Source: an uncultured Bacteroidales bacterium (GTDB lineage: Bacteria > Bacteroidota > Bacteroidia > Bacteroidales > Paludibacteraceae). From it: a DNA stretch of 64,000 bases. Both the position numbers and the translations under genes were made by a program. This document shows, piece by piece, positions 3,104 to 63,542 of the stretch. The notes under the pieces are model-generated. The model made no database searches and had not been told where the DNA came from. It was given only the letters and a program-made list of their open reading frames with translations. The stretch spans positions 1-64,000 of the forward strand of contig CADAZU010000012.1 of assembly GCA_902792535.1 (NCBI GenBank), in the 5' to 3' direction. Numbering within the stretch: the first letter of the stretch is position 1; the number at the start of each line of letters is the position of its first letter.

Positions 3104-3159
3104 TTTAAACTTGATATAACAATGTTTATTTATGTTTATAACAATGTTTATTTATGTTT

Positions 3160-3202
3160 ATTTTCTTTAAATTCTCAAATCTCAAATCTCAAATCTTAAA
3201 TA
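3160..3202. repeat. Tandem CTCAAAT repeat after a gene
   Basis: Three to four units of TCTCAAA/TCTTAAA run up to the stop codon of the short dehydrogenase. Similar AAATCTT-type repeats occur at 25999-26045 (inside recR), 27014-27043 and 45198-45248. Confidence 0.7.
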
Positions 3203-3951
3203 TGCTCTTCCACGCCTCTAAAGTGTACATTCAACTCATGCAAATGCTCCAGCAGCACACCCAGCGGCGTACCTTTGGTCATTTCTGCAAAAGCGTTCAC
3301 ATCTTTCGGGAAGCATTTTCCGCCGTAGCCGTACTTGCCGTCCGGTCCGGGAACATACGTGTGCGTGTCGTTGATGTAACCGGACAACAGAATGCCGGTG
3401 TGCACTTTGCGCCAATCAGCACCCATTTTCTCGCAATACTCGCGGCAGGCATTGAAATACGTCACTTTGTACGCGCCGAACACATTATGCATGTATTTGG
3501 TCAGCTCTGCCTCCAACGGAGTCATTACGGTAAATTTCTTGCCGACGAAGATTTTTGTCAGCAGCTCCTGCGCACCCGTGAAAACCATGGTCTGTTTGTT
3601 AAAGTCCTCGATGAACGTGCGTTCGGTCAAAAACTCAGGCATGTAGCATACCTGGTGACCCGTCTCGCGACTCAGCATCTCGCTCGTACCCGGCAAGATT
3701 GTAGTACGCACAAACACCGGCACGTCCGGCAGATTTTTGATCAGTTCTTTCATCAGCGTAAGATCCTGCGTGCCGTCTTCTTCGGTCGGCACGTGAATCT
3801 GCAGAAAAGCGATGTCAATACCGCTCAAATCGTCATTGTAGCCTTTGTAAGGATCGCTGATGAATAGTTTGCACTCGGGGTTGTTGTTCTCCAACCAGTT
3901 TTTCAGGGCTCCGCCTACGAAGCCGCATCCAATAATTCCAACGTTAATCAT
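3196..3951 (-). CDS. Short UDP-glucose/GDP-mannose dehydrogenase-like protein
   Basis: 251 residues with an N-terminal Rossmann motif (GIIGCGFVGGAL), a PEFLTERTF segment and the active-site cysteine in GYGGKCFPKD near residue 213. The protein ends about 40 residues after that cysteine. It therefore keeps the NAD-binding and central helical domains but lacks the C-terminal nucleotide-sugar-binding domain of full-length enzymes such as its neighbour. It could be a distinct short clade or act with a partner; the reaction cannot be assigned. An outward promoter at 4069-4100 probably drives it, with a leader of about 110 nt. Confidence 0.8.
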   Translation of the reverse strand: MINVGIIGCGFVGGALKNWLENNNPECKLFISDPYKGYNDDLSGIDIAFLQIHVPTEEDGTQDLTLMKELIKNLPDVPVFVRTTILPGTSEMLSRETGHQVCYMPEFLTERTFIEDFNKQTMVFTGAQELLTKIFVGKKFTVMTPLEAELTKYMHNVFGAYKVTYFNACREYCEKMGADWRKVHTGILLSGYINDTHTYVPGPDGKYGYGGKCFPKDVNAFAEMTKGTPLGVLLEHLHELNVHFRGVEEHI

Positions 3952-4068
3952 GTTTGTATTATTTTTATATTTTTTGTTTCTCCTTAATAGAGCGGAGTTC
4001 CTCTGAGTAATTACCGTTAAAACGGAGTTTTAGCGCATTACGAAGAGAGAACCCGCGTAAAAAAGCCC

Positions 4069-4100
4069 GCAAAGATACAACAAATTTTTCATATACGCAA
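4069..4100 (-). promoter_or_regulatory. Promoter for the short dehydrogenase gene
   Basis: On the minus strand a TTGCG -33 box (4096-4100) and TATCTTTGC -7 box (4069-4077) lie with first bases 23 nt apart, matching the Bacteroidetes primary sigma consensus TTTG/TANNTTTG. Confidence 0.75.
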
Positions 4101-4169
4101 GTGCGCGCGTACTTTTTATAAAAAAATAATTTTTTTCGCATTTTTATACCAAAAAACACCATCAAAAAG

Positions 4170-4194
4170 TGTATATATACATAGTATATATACA
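4170..4194. repeat. Perfect 11-bp-arm palindrome
   Basis: Arms TGTATATATAC and GTATATATACA flank a 3-base centre. The other copy of the element keeps both arms, while the centre reads inverted relative to this one. It could be a protein-binding or cruciform site. Confidence 0.75.
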
Positions 4195-4216
4195 GTAAAT
4201 GTCGGAAAATATACGT

Positions 4217-4271
4217 AGTGCGTGATTAGTGCGTGATAAGTGCGTGATAAGTGCGAGATAAGTGCGTCATA
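4217..4271. repeat. Five 11-bp iteron-like tandem repeats
   Basis: Five head-to-tail units AGTGCGTGATA with single-base variants fill 55 bp. The same count and phase recur at 63107-63161. Regular helical spacing suggests a binding array, but no protein is identified. Confidence 0.75.
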
Positions 4272-4318
4272 ATCGGGGTAACTTGCTATAACCTTGCTAT
4301 AATTTTGCACTCCCCGGC

Positions 4319-4350
4319 TTGCACATGTCAACTTTTTTTACTACCTTTGC
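4319..4350 (+). promoter_or_regulatory. Promoter for the DUF2723 gene
   Basis: TTGCACATGTC (4319-4329) and TACCTTTGC (4342-4350) with the standard 23-nt offset and a T-rich spacer. Confidence 0.8.
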
Positions 4351-4373
4351 GCCGATTTTGCCTAAATACGGCT

Positions 4374-4431
4374 TTTTTGACTAGATTAACTGGTTCTACT
4401 AGTTTGACTAGATAGACTGGTTCTACTATAA
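4374..4431. repeat. Direct 27-bp repeat in a leader
   Basis: Two near-identical units (TTTGACTAGAT, four or five bases, ACTGGTTCTACTA) lie in tandem in the leader of the DUF2723 gene. Function unknown. Confidence 0.65.
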
Positions 4432-4455
4432 AACAACTAAAATTAACAATAAACA

Positions 4456-7400
4456 ATGAAAAATTTCAAATTGTGGAATACGCTCTGCGGATGGGTGGTT
4501 TTTGCCATCGCGGCGGCAACGTATCTCCTTACAATGGAACCCACTGCCTCCTTCTGGGACTGCGGTGAGTTTATCTCCAGCGCTTGGAAGCTGGATGTTG
4601 GTCACCCGCCCGGAGCACCTTTCTTCATGCTCATGGGGCATTTCTTCAGTCTTTTTGCACCCGACACAGCCCATGTGGCGATGTGTGTGAACGCCCTTTC
4701 GGCGCTTGCAAGTGCCTTCACGATCCTGTTCCTTTTCTGGACGATCACAGCCCTTGCGAAGAAACTCGTCGAGCCGGACACGCTCTGGAAAGGCATTGCC
4801 TTACTCGGAGCAGGAGCAGTTGGTGCACTCGCTTACACTTTCTCCGACACCTTCTGGTTTTCGGCGGTGGAAGGCGAAGTGTATGCCTCTTCGTCCCTCT
4901 TCACGGCGGTCGTCTTCTGGCTTATCCTCAAATGGGATGAACAGGCAGACGAAGAAGGATCCGATCGTTGGCTCATCGCCATCGCATATCTTATGGGACT
5001 TTCCATCGGTGTCCACTTGCTGAACTTGCTGACCATTCCGGCAATCGGTTTAGTCTATTATTTCCGCAAGTATACCTTCTCGTGGAAAGGACTCATCTAT
5101 GCGTTCCTCGCTTCCTGTCTGGTCTTGCTGGTCATTCTGTATGGTATTATTCCGGGCTTCCCGACCGTAATCGGTTGGTTCGAACTCCTCTTCGTGAATG
5201 TCCTCGGCTGTCCGTTCAACACCGGTATGTGGATTTGTCTGGTACTCACCGTAGCACTCCTCACATGGGCGATTCTTTATACCAAGAAACGCTCGGACAA
5301 AGAGGCAGAGGAGCAACAAGGCAAAAACCTCTGGCGTTGGCTCAATACCGGCGTAGTGATGTTGACCGTCATTCTGATCGGTTATAGCTCTTATGCGGCG
5401 TTGGTGATCCGCTCTGCGGCAGACACGCCGATGGACCAGAACTCCCCGGACAATGTGTTCTCGCTCAAGTATTACTTGAATCGTGAGCAGTACGGCGATC
5501 GTCCGCTTTTCTACGGCCAGACTTACAATGCACCGGTTGAACTTCGTATAGAAGGCAACATGTGTGTCCCCGTGGAGAAAAAAGGACACGCGCAGTATGC
5601 TCCGGCTCCCAAAGTAGAAGGCGAAAAAGACCATTATGTCATCACCGGTTACAAGACCGACTACGCTTATATGAAGCAGTTCTGCATGCTCTTCCCGCGC
5701 ATGTATTCCTCGCAAGGAAGCCATGTCCAGGCATACAAAGAGTGGGCGGATGTCAAAGGAAAACGGGTTCGTTATGAGTACTGCGGACAGCAGAAAACGG
5801 ATTATTGTCCGACCTTCGGAGAAAACCTCCGTTTCTTCTTCCGCTACCAGGTCAACTTCATGTACTGGCGCTATTTCATGTGGAATTTCGCCGGACGCCA
5901 GAACGACTTGCAGTCCTATGGCGAGATCACGAAAGGCAACTGGATCTCCGGTATCTCGTTTATTGACAACGCCCTCTACGGCGATCAGGACTTGCTACCG
6001 ACGGAACTTAAGGAAAACAAAGGACACAACGTCTATTATTTCCTCCCGCTCTTGCTCGGTATCATCGGTATTGTATGGCAATGCGGCAAACGCGATAAAG
6101 AAGGAAATGCAACGGGTTGGAAGAATTTCACGCTGACCTTCTTGCTCTTCTTCTTAACGGGTTTGGCAATCGTCATGTACCTCAACCAAACACCTTATCA
6201 GCCGCGTGAACGGGACTATGCGTATGCCGGTTCGTTCTATGCGTTCTGTATCTGGATTGGTTTGGGTGTCCTCGCTCTCATCGACTGGATTAACACAGTC
6301 CTGAAGAGCGAAAATGGAAAAGCTGTTGTGGCAGTTTGCGCAAGCATCCTTTGCCTCCTCGTTCCGGCTCAAATGGCTTCCCAAAACTGGGATGACCACG
6401 ACCGTTCGCAGCGCTATTCATGCCGCGATTTCGGAGCGAACTATCTCAAATCCTGCGAGGACAACGCGATCCTCTTCTCTAACGGCGATAACGATACCTT
6501 CCCGCTTTGGTACAACCAAGAGGTGGAAGGTGAAGGAACAGACAAACGTGTCTGCAACCTCTCGTACCTCCAAACCGATTGGTACATCTCGCAAATGAAG
6601 CGTCCGTACTATGAGTCCGAAGCACTCCCGATCTCTTGGGAATACAAGGATTTCATGCCCGGCACGAACGAGATTGCGCGTGTGGATAACCGTCTCGGAC
6701 AGCCGATTTCGGTTGAGAAAGCATTCAATTTCCTGCGTTCCGACGATCCGCGAACCAAGTCTCGCGAGGGAGAGAACTACCTCCCGTCCGACCAACTCTA
6801 TGTGGAGACACCGGATGGCGAACAGATCTACTTCCAAAAGAAGCGGATGTACACGCGCTCGCAGATGATGATTATGGAAATGCTGTCCACCAACAAATGG
6901 CAACGTCCGATGTATTTCTGCGCAACGGTCGGAAACGACTACTATCTGGGGCTCGAACCGTGGATGGAACTCACCGGACTCGCATACCGCATTACCCCGA
7001 CTCGCAGCCGCGACGGACAGCCGCGTGTCAATTCCGAAGTGATGTACGAGAATATGATGCATAAGTTCAAATACGGAAACATGAATATCCCCGGCATCTA
7101 CATTGACGAGAACCTTATGCGCATGTGTCGCACCCACAGAATGATGTTTGCTCAGTTGGCGGAACAACTCTTGCGCGAGAACCAACGTGAGAAAGCGCTC
7201 GAAGTGCTGGATTACGCGGAGGAGCAACTTCCTGGATATAATATCTCGTATGACTACACTTCCGCTTCCATGGCTTCGATGTATTTCATGCTCGGCGAGA
7301 ACGACAAAGCGTTGGCAATCATGGACAAAGTGGCAAACAATAGTGTCGAGTACCTGCGTTTTGCGGCGTCTTTGGATCGTCAGCAACGTCGTGTCATGGA

Positions 7401-7521
7401 ATCGACTACCAACCGCGAAGCGGCAATCCTCTCCTATGTGCTCCAGACCTGCGAACGCTATAGACAAACAGAGTTAGTAGATAAATATTATCAAGATTAC
7501 GTATCGTATGTTAACGATTAA
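4456..7521 (+). CDS. DUF2723 (GT117) membrane glycosyltransferase
   Basis: 1021 residues. The opening membrane segment is followed by TASFWDCGEFISSAWKLDVG and then HPPGAPFFML, the hallmark of DUF2723 proteins, which are related to protein O-mannosyltransferases (GT-C fold, polyprenyl-phosphate-sugar donor, active site facing the periplasm). About ten membrane helices occupy the first 330 residues. A second helical membrane block lies near 530-650, then a soluble domain, and the C-terminus (about 890-1010) is helical and TPR-like. Such proteins are conserved in Bacteroidetes and are suspected to glycosylate exported proteins. The last 14 bases overlap the next gene. Confidence 0.85.
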   Translation: MKNFKLWNTLCGWVVFAIAAATYLLTMEPTASFWDCGEFISSAWKLDVGHPPGAPFFMLMGHFFSLFAPDTAHVAMCVNALSALASAFTILFLFWTITALAKKLVEPDTLWKGIALLGAGAVGALAYTFSDTFWFSAVEGEVYASSSLFTAVVFWLILKWDEQADEEGSDRWLIAIAYLMGLSIGVHLLNLLTIPAIGLVYYFRKYTFSWKGLIYAFLASCLVLLVILYGIIPGFPTVIGWFELLFVNVLGCPFNTGMWICLVLTVALLTWAILYTKKRSDKEAEEQQGKNLWRWLNTGVVMLTVILIGYSSYAALVIRSAADTPMDQNSPDNVFSLKYYLNREQYGDRPLFYGQTYNAPVELRIEGNMCVPVEKKGHAQYAPAPKVEGEKDHYVITGYKTDYAYMKQFCMLFPRMYSSQGSHVQAYKEWADVKGKRVRYEYCGQQKTDYCPTFGENLRFFFRYQVNFMYWRYFMWNFAGRQNDLQSYGEITKGNWISGISFIDNALYGDQDLLPTELKENKGHNVYYFLPLLLGIIGIVWQCGKRDKEGNATGWKNFTLTFLLFFLTGLAIVMYLNQTPYQPRERDYAYAGSFYAFCIWIGLGVLALIDWINTVLKSENGKAVVAVCASILCLLVPAQMASQNWDDHDRSQRYSCRDFGANYLKSCEDNAILFSNGDNDTFPLWYNQEVEGEGTDKRVCNLSYLQTDWYISQMKRPYYESEALPISWEYKDFMPGTNEIARVDNRLGQPISVEKAFNFLRSDDPRTKSREGENYLPSDQLYVETPDGEQIYFQKKRMYTRSQMMIMEMLSTNKWQRPMYFCATVGNDYYLGLEPWMELTGLAYRITPTRSRDGQPRVNSEVMYENMMHKFKYGNMNIPGIYIDENLMRMCRTHRMMFAQLAEQLLRENQREKALEVLDYAEEQLPGYNISYDYTSASMASMYFMLGENDKALAIMDKVANNSVEYLRFAASLDRQQRRVMESTTNREAAILSYVLQTCERYRQTELVDKYYQDYVSYVND

Positions 7522-62170: not shown

Positions 62171-63010
62171 TTATTTATACAATTTACGTTTTCCCATGAG
62201 GCGCATCATTGCATCCCAGAGGCGGGTGGGGAGAAGCCAATGGAAGAAGACGATCGCGCCGGAGAGACGTCCGATGCGGTAGCGTGTACACGGACGGCGA
62301 GAATTGACCGCTTTGCAGATGGCTTTGCGGACGACTGCGGGATCGGACAGAGAAGGCGAGAGATACATGTTCCGCAAGTTATCCGCCATCATTTTGCCGG
62401 ATTCGGCATAGGGTGTACCTTCCGATGTCTCTGCCAGATGGTCTGCTGCGATAATTCCCCAGTTGGTTTTGATAGCTCCGGGTTCTATGATAATTACGTC
62501 TATTCCGAAGGGTTTGAGTTCCATACGAAGGGCATCGCTGAAGGCTTCTACTGCATACTTCGACACATGATACCAACCGCCATAATAGAGGACCGATTTG
62601 CCTGCAACAGAGGAAGTGTTGATGATTCGTCCGGAATGCTGTGCACGCATGGAAGGCAGGACTAACTGGCAGAGCCGAGCGAGACCGAAGATATTGACTT
62701 CCAATTGATTACGGGCATCGTCCATCGGTACATTTTCGATTGCTCCGAAATAGCCATATCCGGCATTGTTGATGAGGACATCGATGCGTCCTTCGTTGGA
62801 GAGGATCGTCTGCACGCCTTGCTGCATCGACTGCTCGTCGGTTACATCCATCCGAAGCGGGGTGATTCCGTATTGCCGAAGCGGTTCCATCCGTTCGATC
62901 CGGCGTGCCGCGGCATACACTTTGTGCCCCTGTTCCGCCAAGGCAATCGCTGTGTCATAACCTATTCCGCTACTGGCACCAGTGAGGAGAATAACTTGAG
63001 GAGTTTTCAT
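62171..63010 (-). CDS. Short-chain dehydrogenase/reductase
   Basis: 279 residues from ATG 63010; the longer frame lies over the promoter. ILLTGASSGIGYDTAIALAE (TGxxxGxG), NNAGYGYFGAIE (NNAG) and SSVAGKSVLYYGGWYHVSKYAVEA (catalytic S, YxxxK) define the classical SDR. The C-terminus is basic. NADP(H) use is likely from Arg at AARR. The substrate is unknown. Confidence 0.9.
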   Translation of the reverse strand: MKTPQVILLTGASSGIGYDTAIALAEQGHKVYAAARRIERMEPLRQYGITPLRMDVTDEQSMQQGVQTILSNEGRIDVLINNAGYGYFGAIENVPMDDARNQLEVNIFGLARLCQLVLPSMRAQHSGRIINTSSVAGKSVLYYGGWYHVSKYAVEAFSDALRMELKPFGIDVIIIEPGAIKTNWGIIAADHLAETSEGTPYAESGKMMADNLRNMYLSPSLSDPAVVRKAICKAVNSRRPCTRYRIGRLSGAIVFFHWLLPTRLWDAMMRLMGKRKLYK

Positions 63011-63028: not shown

Positions 63029-63060
63029 GCAAAGGTAGTAAAAAAAAATGACATGTGCAA
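63029..63060 (-). promoter_or_regulatory. Promoter for the SDR gene
   Basis: Minus-strand TTGCACATGTC and TACCTTTGC with the 23-nt offset. Nearly identical to the plus-strand promoter at 4319-4350. Confidence 0.82.
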
Positions 63061-63106
63061 GCGGGGAGTGCAAAAAAATAGCAAAGTAATAGCAAGCTAC
63101 CCCGAT

Positions 63107-63161
63107 TATGACGCACTTATCTCACACTTATCACGCACTTATCACGCACTTATCACGCACT
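63107..63161. repeat. Five 11-bp tandem repeats, copy 2
   Basis: Units TATCACGCACT with two variants, the reverse complement of the array at 4217-4271. Confidence 0.78.
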
Positions 63162-63183
63162 ACGCACATTTTCCGACATTTAC

Positions 63184-63208
63184 TGTATATATACATAGTA
63201 TATATACA
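63184..63208. repeat. Palindrome, copy 2
   Basis: Arms TGTATATATAC and GTATATATACA around a 3-base centre, matching 4170-4194. Confidence 0.78.
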
Positions 63209-63277
63209 CTTTTTGAGGGTGTTTTTGGGTATAAAAATGAGAAAAAATGCTTTTTTTATAAAAAAGTACGCGCGCGC

Positions 63278-63309
63278 TTGCACATGTCAAAAAAAAGTTG
63301 TAAATTTGC
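63278..63309 (+). promoter_or_regulatory. Promoter for the small membrane protein and OmpH
   Basis: TTGCACATGTC and TAAATTTGC with the 23-nt offset and an A-run spacer. Confidence 0.82.
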
Positions 63310-63332: not shown

Positions 63333-63542
63333 ATGAAAGAGATTTTGATAGCTATAATTTTTCTGCTGGTAGCGATGGCGCTACTGAGTGTGGGGGTGAT
63401 ATTTCGCAAAGACCATAGTTTCCGGTCGCAACATATCCATGCCAACGAACGGATGAAAAAAGACGGCATCCATTGCTCGACCGCGCAGGACAAAGAGATG
63501 CGGAGGGCGAAAAAACATAAGATTGATGTTGGGGAATTGTAA
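63333..63542 (+). CDS. Conserved Bacteroidetes small membrane protein
   Basis: 69 residues from ATG 63333. One membrane helix (ILIAIIFLLVAMALLSVGVI) and a polar tail with HSFRSQHIHANERMKKDGIH and a CSTAQDKEMRR segment. I recall this small family in Bacteroidales with the same HxH...GIxC pattern. Function unknown. It probably shares a transcript with OmpH 70 bases downstream. Confidence 0.75.
   Translation: MKEILIAIIFLLVAMALLSVGVIFRKDHSFRSQHIHANERMKKDGIHCSTAQDKEMRRAKKHKIDVGEL

Follow-up and report, generated by a model that had tools for sequence, protein, structure and literature searches.

A dispersed intergenic element with a palindrome and an 11-bp repeat array in one Bacteroidales genus, possibly a portable control cassette

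Results

Two inverted copies in the window

The window (the whole stretch of 64,000 nucleotides that was analysed) contains two copies of an intergenic element in inverted orientation. BLAST and alignment place copy 1 at 4069..4350 on the forward strand and copy 2 at 63029..63309 on the reverse strand. Both belong to a promoter-carrying subfamily that is distinguished by a 23-bp palindrome.

Copy 1 begins with a leftward outward promoter-like site (4070..4100, reverse strand; consensus CAAAnnTA...CAA) with a GC-alternating box just inside it. It is followed by a palindrome with 11-base arms and the 3-base centre ATA (4170..4194; 10-base core arms at 4171-4193 plus one flanking T-A pair), a spacer (4195..4216), an array of five 11-bp units with the word AGTGCGTGATA (4217..4271) and a tail of four degenerate units that keep the 11-bp phase, ATCGGGGTAAC TTGCTATAACC TTGCTATAATT TTGCACTCCCC (4272..4315), all three on the forward strand. 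The copy ends with a rightward outward promoter-like site (4319..4349, forward strand) directed toward a TMEM260-like gene at 4456-7521. Six imperfect 9-bp units (ACTRG/ACTAT at 4380, 4389, 4398, 4407, 4416 and 4425) were noticed by eye in the leader of this gene (window 4380-4429).

In copy 2 the same parts lie in the opposite order. An outward promoter-like site on the forward strand (63278..63308) faces a small ORF (ATG at 63333 by eye, stop at 63542). The palindrome with 11-base arms occupies 63184..63208 (10-base core arms at 63185-63207 plus a flanking T-A pair) and has the centre TAT in array orientation. The spacer (63162..63183), the five 11-bp units (63107..63161), the four degenerate 11-bp-phased units of the tail (63063..63106) and a second outward promoter-like site (63030..63060) are on the reverse strand, the last being directed toward a short-chain dehydrogenase gene (start ATG at 63010). 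The promoter-like sites of both copies are of the Bacteroidetes type, with the consensus TTG-N18..23-TAnnTTTG. These consensus sites face outward in both window copies, and promoter activity in both directions is putative.

The preliminary description of a near-identical inverted pair with two outward promoters, a palindrome with 11-base arms and five 11-bp units is borne out by the alignment, which has 253 identities in 284 aligned columns with 5 gap positions (BLAST: 89% identity, E 4.6e-99). Among the seven inverted repeats of at least 40 nt in the window this pair is the longest (257 nt, 86% complementary without gaps). Matches similar to GTGCGTGATAAGTGCG occur 8 times in the window vs 0.5 expected from shuffles. 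The palindrome centre had also been reported to read in opposite sense in the two copies. Indeed, the two inverted elements have palindromes that read alike on the forward strand, which means that the centre has opposite senses with respect to the array in the two copies; but this is not special to the window pair, since both senses are common among 75 copies (see below).

Two other points of that description are not borne out. An inversion of the 59-kb segment between the copies finds no support in the close relative G075, in which the copy-1 junction is continuous and uninverted (positions 134-3698 of L378 match window 3146-6671), or in G043, in which both flanks of copy 1 are conserved. For the same reasons a mis-assembly of copy 1 is unlikely; for copy 2 no corresponding locus was found in a relative. 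Nor is the 280-bp element a two-copy feature: the host genome contains 11 arrays with the same word.

Occurrence in the host genome and in relatives

The host genome is represented by 84 contigs with a total length of 2.37 Mb and is 82.65% complete. BLAST of the 282-bp sequence against it gave 27 matches. The array is present in 11 of them, and the other 16 are promoter-only or partial because promoter sequences alone recur in the genome. Pattern searches detected 11 arrays with AGTGCGTGATA (the GCG word), 10 with AGTGGGTGATT (the GGG word) and 2 AGTAGG-like arrays.

The preliminary description called for a search for further copies in the genome and its relatives; copies were found in both, and the case that none exist anywhere does not hold. 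Among the genomes sampled, the family is nearly restricted to one genus. An exact three-unit scan with one genome per species returned 62 stretches, every one with Bacteroidales or Paludibacteraceae in its title and many with titles that name ruminant samples. Matches were found in 7 of 41 genomes, the own genome included, and each of the seven is from the own genus. Of 247 genomes from the order, 4 were hit by a generic relaxed pattern. Two are of the genus (the own genome and another), and the two from outside it have a single, marginal match apiece with one mismatch. The generic pattern did not match the two other genera of the family that are among these 247 genomes. The covariance model R1 matched 36 of the 61 sampled genomes of the genus, some of them weakly and with other words. 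It also gave 36 matches within the single genome G043, a few of which are the palindrome read on the opposite strand; 23 array copies were examined in that genome.

The element is short, non-coding, dispersed and intergenic, as is expected of a MITE. The mean longest inverted match between flanks is 6.8 nt for own flanks, 6.5 nt for flanks of other copies and 6.2 nt for shuffled ones in 18 G043 copies, i.e., there are no terminal inverted repeats beyond the control. In the same 18 copies no k-mer offset exceeds that of shuffled pairs, as target-site duplication would require. Because both tests were negative, we do not file the element as a MITE.

Anatomy of the GCG-word element

The layout of the AGTGCGTGATA element is constant: the order in 71 distinct copies is palindrome, spacer, array, tail. 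We searched for the palindrome with the consensus GTATTATATAC-NNN-GTATATAATAC, or the 23-bp variant GTATATATAC-NNN-GTATATATAC, allowing three substitutions. By this search it is present in 55 of the 71 copies and absent in 16. The spacer is 22-24 bp long in 48 of the 55 palindrome-bearing copies. The array includes five units in 61 of the 71 copies (22 of 23 in G043), four units in 5 and six in 5. The fixed number of five holds for the GCG word only; in arrays with other words the number varies widely. The first two units are nearly invariant, and the later ones have position-specific variants.

The arms of the palindrome are perfect in all 75 distinct palindrome copies. The centre is ATA or GTA in 31 of them, TAT or TAC in 42 and different in 2. 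Both senses of the centre were found at a single locus in different, closely related species; this was observed at ybeY, at the window copy-1 locus and at pta.

The 11-bp phase continues beyond the array. Within 77 bp 3' of it the lag-11 identity in 70 copies is 0.388, compared with 0.274 (sd 0.007) in base shuffles, and no lag-11 peak was detected upstream of the palindrome in these copies. The phased tail consists of locus-specific words and fades after about 110 bp; in G043 it is absent. Three copies (L003, L029, L086) have an extra block of approximately 83 bp with inverted repeats between the palindrome and the array, and by eye L030 and L086 are apparently one locus without and with this block. 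Rfam gave no match for the block.

An RNA element of 5' leaders was considered and rejected: Rfam gave no matches at the gathering score in 6 loci, and arrays occur in all gene contexts.

Other words in related species

Arrays with other words are found in relatives of the host. A relaxed pattern matched 12 of 17 genomes of the genus, and one or two words prevail in each genome: AGTAGGTKATT in G060, AGTTAGTGATT in G063, AGTATGTGATT in G067 and G020 and, among the matches listed, mainly AGTGGGTKATT in G011. The word TATCCTATGGG was first read at ybeY in G003, G004 and G046, and then at other sites of these genomes and in G015. A search for it in nine genomes gave 23 matches in G004, 6 in G003, 8 in G046, 7 in G015 and none in the other five, while a backwards control pattern also matched (13, 2, 0 and 1 times, respectively). 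All 18 inspected copies of the TATCCTATGGG element have a palindrome that is separated by a spacer of about 33 bp from an array of four units. Arrays with GGG, AGG, TAG and ATG words occur without the palindrome of the GCG element, and the AGTAGG and AGTTAG words are mostly without a palindrome.

A genome-wide word was predicted for G002, and the prediction failed: AGCATAACATA, its word at ybeY, is found nowhere else in 400 kb of this genome. Thus an 11-bp array need not have a word that recurs across the genome.

Gain and loss at orthologous loci

Orthologous sites are occupied in some genomes and empty in others. We found ybeY in 29 of 30 genomes searched and read the gap upstream of it. The spmB-ybeY gap contains an 11-bp array in 12 of the 29 genomes, with five different words: the GCG word with the palindrome (5 genomes), TATCCTATGGG with a palindrome (3), AGG (2), a short TTAGTTAGATA-like array with a palindrome (1) and AGCATAACATA (1), which fills exactly 55 bp. 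The gap is only 1-5 bp in 4 genomes and otherwise short in 7; in the remaining 6, spmB upstream of ybeY was not detected by our script. Empty and filled gaps are interleaved on a rough two-gene tree with uneven support. Since the same gap holds five words in 12 genomes and only 1-5 bp in four, the sequences indicate that the elements are gained or lost at loci.

Comparisons of whole sets of sites are in agreement with this. Among the 13 sites of G075, 6 match the array regions fetched from G000 and 7 do not. Two of the seven were queried in G000: site L379 is empty there (80 bp vs 350 bp), and for L384 the end of the G000 contig was reached. In a flank comparison of nine genomes most sites are not shared. 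Both flanks are conserved in four locus groups, three of which have different words in different species; the link between L001 and L002 in this comparison stems from the element itself. The further arrays in the genome, together with occupied and empty orthologous sites, support the earlier suggestion of something other than ordinary regulatory conservation, here a dispersed element that is gained and lost.

The identity of spacer and array, calculated for 64 elements from 26 genomes, is 0.856 for pairs of loci within a genome (187 pairs, of which G043 contributes 153), 0.792 at one locus across genomes (51 pairs) and 0.745 otherwise (1778 pairs). The similarity within genomes fits putative species-wise bursts, mostly in G043.

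Promoters and gene context

A subfamily of the element carries promoter-like sites. An outward site is located within 140 bp left of the palindrome in 11 of 11 distinct copies of the 23-bp class vs 20 of 61 copies of the 25-bp class. The GC-alternating box is found in 9 of 11 and 1 of 61 copies, respectively. The 11 copies count as 7 loci, because five of them (L001, L033, L038, L066 and L272) represent the copy-1 locus, each in a different genome. Three unrelated loci have the rightward promoter: copy 1 with its orthologues, copy 2 and L003. Because of this recurrence and of the outward site in all 11 copies, the promoters appear to travel with the element in the window subfamily. In the window and in the genus, many promoter-like sites have an extended -33 box TTGCAYATRTC, in some cases after a GC-alternating GCGCGCGC stretch.

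Gene context was described for the 142 distinct sites at which an automatic ORF rule called both neighbouring genes. The gene on the palindrome side is transcribed away from the element at 95 of the 142 sites (75 of 119 without G043, 20 of 23 in G043). In G043 an outward promoter-like site lies on the palindrome side within 300 bp in 19 of 23 copies. Arrays also occur between convergent genes (16 of 142 sites) and in the gap between the co-directional genes spmB and ybeY, neither of which is predicted by a promoter-operator role.

As a guide to a possible replication-strand rule we used the GC skew in array orientation, which is negative at 112 of 159 distinct sites; in distinct-site counts L061 and L251, as well as L075 and L250 (all G043), are treated as one site each. 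Within G043 it is the coding strand, not replication, that the skew reflects, and in G000 the third-position skew agrees only in part.

A protein of 142-146 aa is encoded next to ten arrays (seven translated, three by eye), which represent several words and several species. It is encoded at 1012-1437 of L006 on the reverse strand, and also at L199, L210, L264, L034, L069, L077, L162, L163 and L168. It has 148 homologues; 120 of the 148 are listed at 63-88% identity. We rejected this neighbour as the cognate binding protein: it has no Pfam match, and its structural model (pLDDT 76.7) has no PDB fold match at E<=0.001. No protein that binds the array was found.

Discussion

The copies in the window belong to a dispersed, non-coding intergenic family of one Bacteroidales genus. 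In a typical member a short spacer separates a perfect, AT-rich palindrome from five 11-bp units. Members occur at some loci that are without them in related species. On balance, we regard it as somewhat probable that the family is a portable upstream control cassette. Judging from sequence comparison, the element is most likely a mobile non-coding cassette and the phased array its operator; the direct repeats spaced 11 bp agree with such an operator. With one unit per helical turn, a putative DNA-binding protein would bind as a row of about five protomers along the same side of the helix. Lying two to three turns from the array, the palindrome could be a second site or a supercoil-sensitive cruciform, and the bound cassette would tune a promoter beside or inside the element. 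The flipped centres and perfect arms may originate from polymerase template switching within the palindrome: switching between the arms homogenises them and inverts spacers, which would explain both features. Such switching at inverted repeats was reported for yeast coding genes (PMC8604942); homogenised arms and inverted spacers, which that report gives as its expected traces, are both seen in the palindrome studied here.

Tentatively, and with low confidence, we propose an extension of this scheme in which the 11-bp pitch and, in several sets of arrays, the palindrome layout are fixed, while the word would be rewritten genome-wide by species, and sometimes at one locus, together with a co-evolving DNA-binding protein. 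New words would then displace old ones and leave decayed 11-bp-phased tails.

It seems rather unlikely that the element is instead a non-autonomous one spread by a single-strand transposase (IS200/REP-like, Y1/HUH) that recognises the hairpin, the array being a passenger or a second recognition site. A perfect hairpin with a 3-base loop, no detected terminal inverted repeats or target-site duplications, a negative array-strand GC skew at 112 of 159 distinct sites and bursts, as in G043 with its 23 examined array copies, would all be natural for such spread. However, arrays with GGG, AGG, TAG and ATG words do without that palindrome, and the skew in G043 tracks the coding strand and not replication.

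Neutral minisatellites are a quite unlikely explanation, though part of the material may be of this kind. By this explanation, short tandem duplications arise easily in the genus; the 11-bp arrays would be the best preserved of the products, and recombination would have copied them to other places. We sampled 400 kb of G002 (L416-L435; 18 of the 20 stretches at contig starts and 2 around known sites) and found tandem repeats of at least three copies with periods 7 (28 repeats), 8 (16), 9 (5) and 11 (11), mostly with locus-specific words. In contrast, two other genera of the family, sampled over 388 kb, yielded only 6 tandem repeats with three or more copies, whatever the period; a single one has period 9, and periods 7, 8 and 11 are not represented. 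Judging by this difference, short tandem arrays seem to arise easily in the genus, and some of those with 11-bp units may be neutral. The constant number of units in GCG-word arrays and their unit variants tied to position, the conserved palindrome and spacer, and the occurrence of the same block at unrelated loci speak against this explanation.

Plasmid R1 parC has a five-plus-five layout of 11-bp repeats. A chromosome-organising or partition-like role, in which a protein forming filaments or patches binds 11-bp iteron arrays in about 10-30 intergenic regions, as at parC, would suit the five-unit count of the GCG word, the 11-bp phase beyond the array and the use of all gene contexts, but it is very unlikely, since sites differ between close species, words switch, and neither clustering nor a strand rule was established. 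ParR/parC plasmid centromeres share sets of five 11-bp direct repeats with the element, which, unlike them, is dispersed in the chromosome at many unrelated loci.

The preferred reading, a mobile cassette with an operator, can be compared with several described systems; a search of open-licence PMC papers found no description of the element itself. BrickBuilt is a minisatellite-bearing MITE of Porphyromonas gingivalis with reported bidirectional promoter activity (PMC4596501). As described in that report, it resembles our element in belonging to Bacteroidales, in having about 20 copies per genome in intergenic positions, in its tandem repeats flanked by a leader and a tail, and in a limited host range; its unit is 23 nt in 1-22.8 copies, and it has IS5-type terminal inverted repeats. 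Our element differs in its 11-bp unit, five in most GCG-word copies, a palindrome leader with a flipping centre, no terminal inverted repeat found and species-specific words. We therefore do not regard it as a BrickBuilt-type element: an 11-bp unit present five times in 61 of 71 GCG-word elements is not a 23-nt unit of variable copy number.

Operators of the OmpR/PhoB family match the element in spacing. ArcA sites, for example, are reported to be direct repeats with 11-bp centre-to-centre spacing and up to five elements per site (PMC3798270). Our element is unlike them in being a copied block gained and lost at loci of all gene contexts, and the suggested likeness is one of spacing. Arrays of the heptamer TAACTGA in Beggiatoaceae, Cyanobacteria and some Bacteroidetes (PMC4679880) are likewise reported as abundant intergenic direct repeats with a suggested regulatory role and a binder that is only putative; unlike our arrays, they have period 7 and one word, and the abstract of that paper mentions no palindrome. 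REP elements, as described in PMC3733652, are also dispersed palindromic repeats; the palindrome here is distinct in being joined to an array.

If the array is a protein-binding site, the genus supplies a set of natural variants in which the scaffold is shared and the words differ, and occupied, re-worded and empty states can be compared at loci. The co-evolution of a DNA-binding protein with dozens of its sites would then be directly testable, and promoter-carrying repeats would be seen to rewire genes in little-studied gut Bacteroidales. If words are indeed rewritten by species together with their protein, this would be a bacterial counterpart of fast-switching recognition systems.

There is also a practical warning, as MAG contigs of this genus often end at such arrays. 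In G067, G063, G042 and G060 several contig ends lie within a few hundred bases of an array, and array copy numbers may thus be underestimated. In G063 an insertion-sequence-like repeat with the ends TTTTCTCCTAATCAACACAGG...CAGTGAGCCA, which we presume to be ISL3-like, adjoins the array on its left at four contig ends (L214, L218, L220, L229), at three of them at a distance of about 25 bp from the array.
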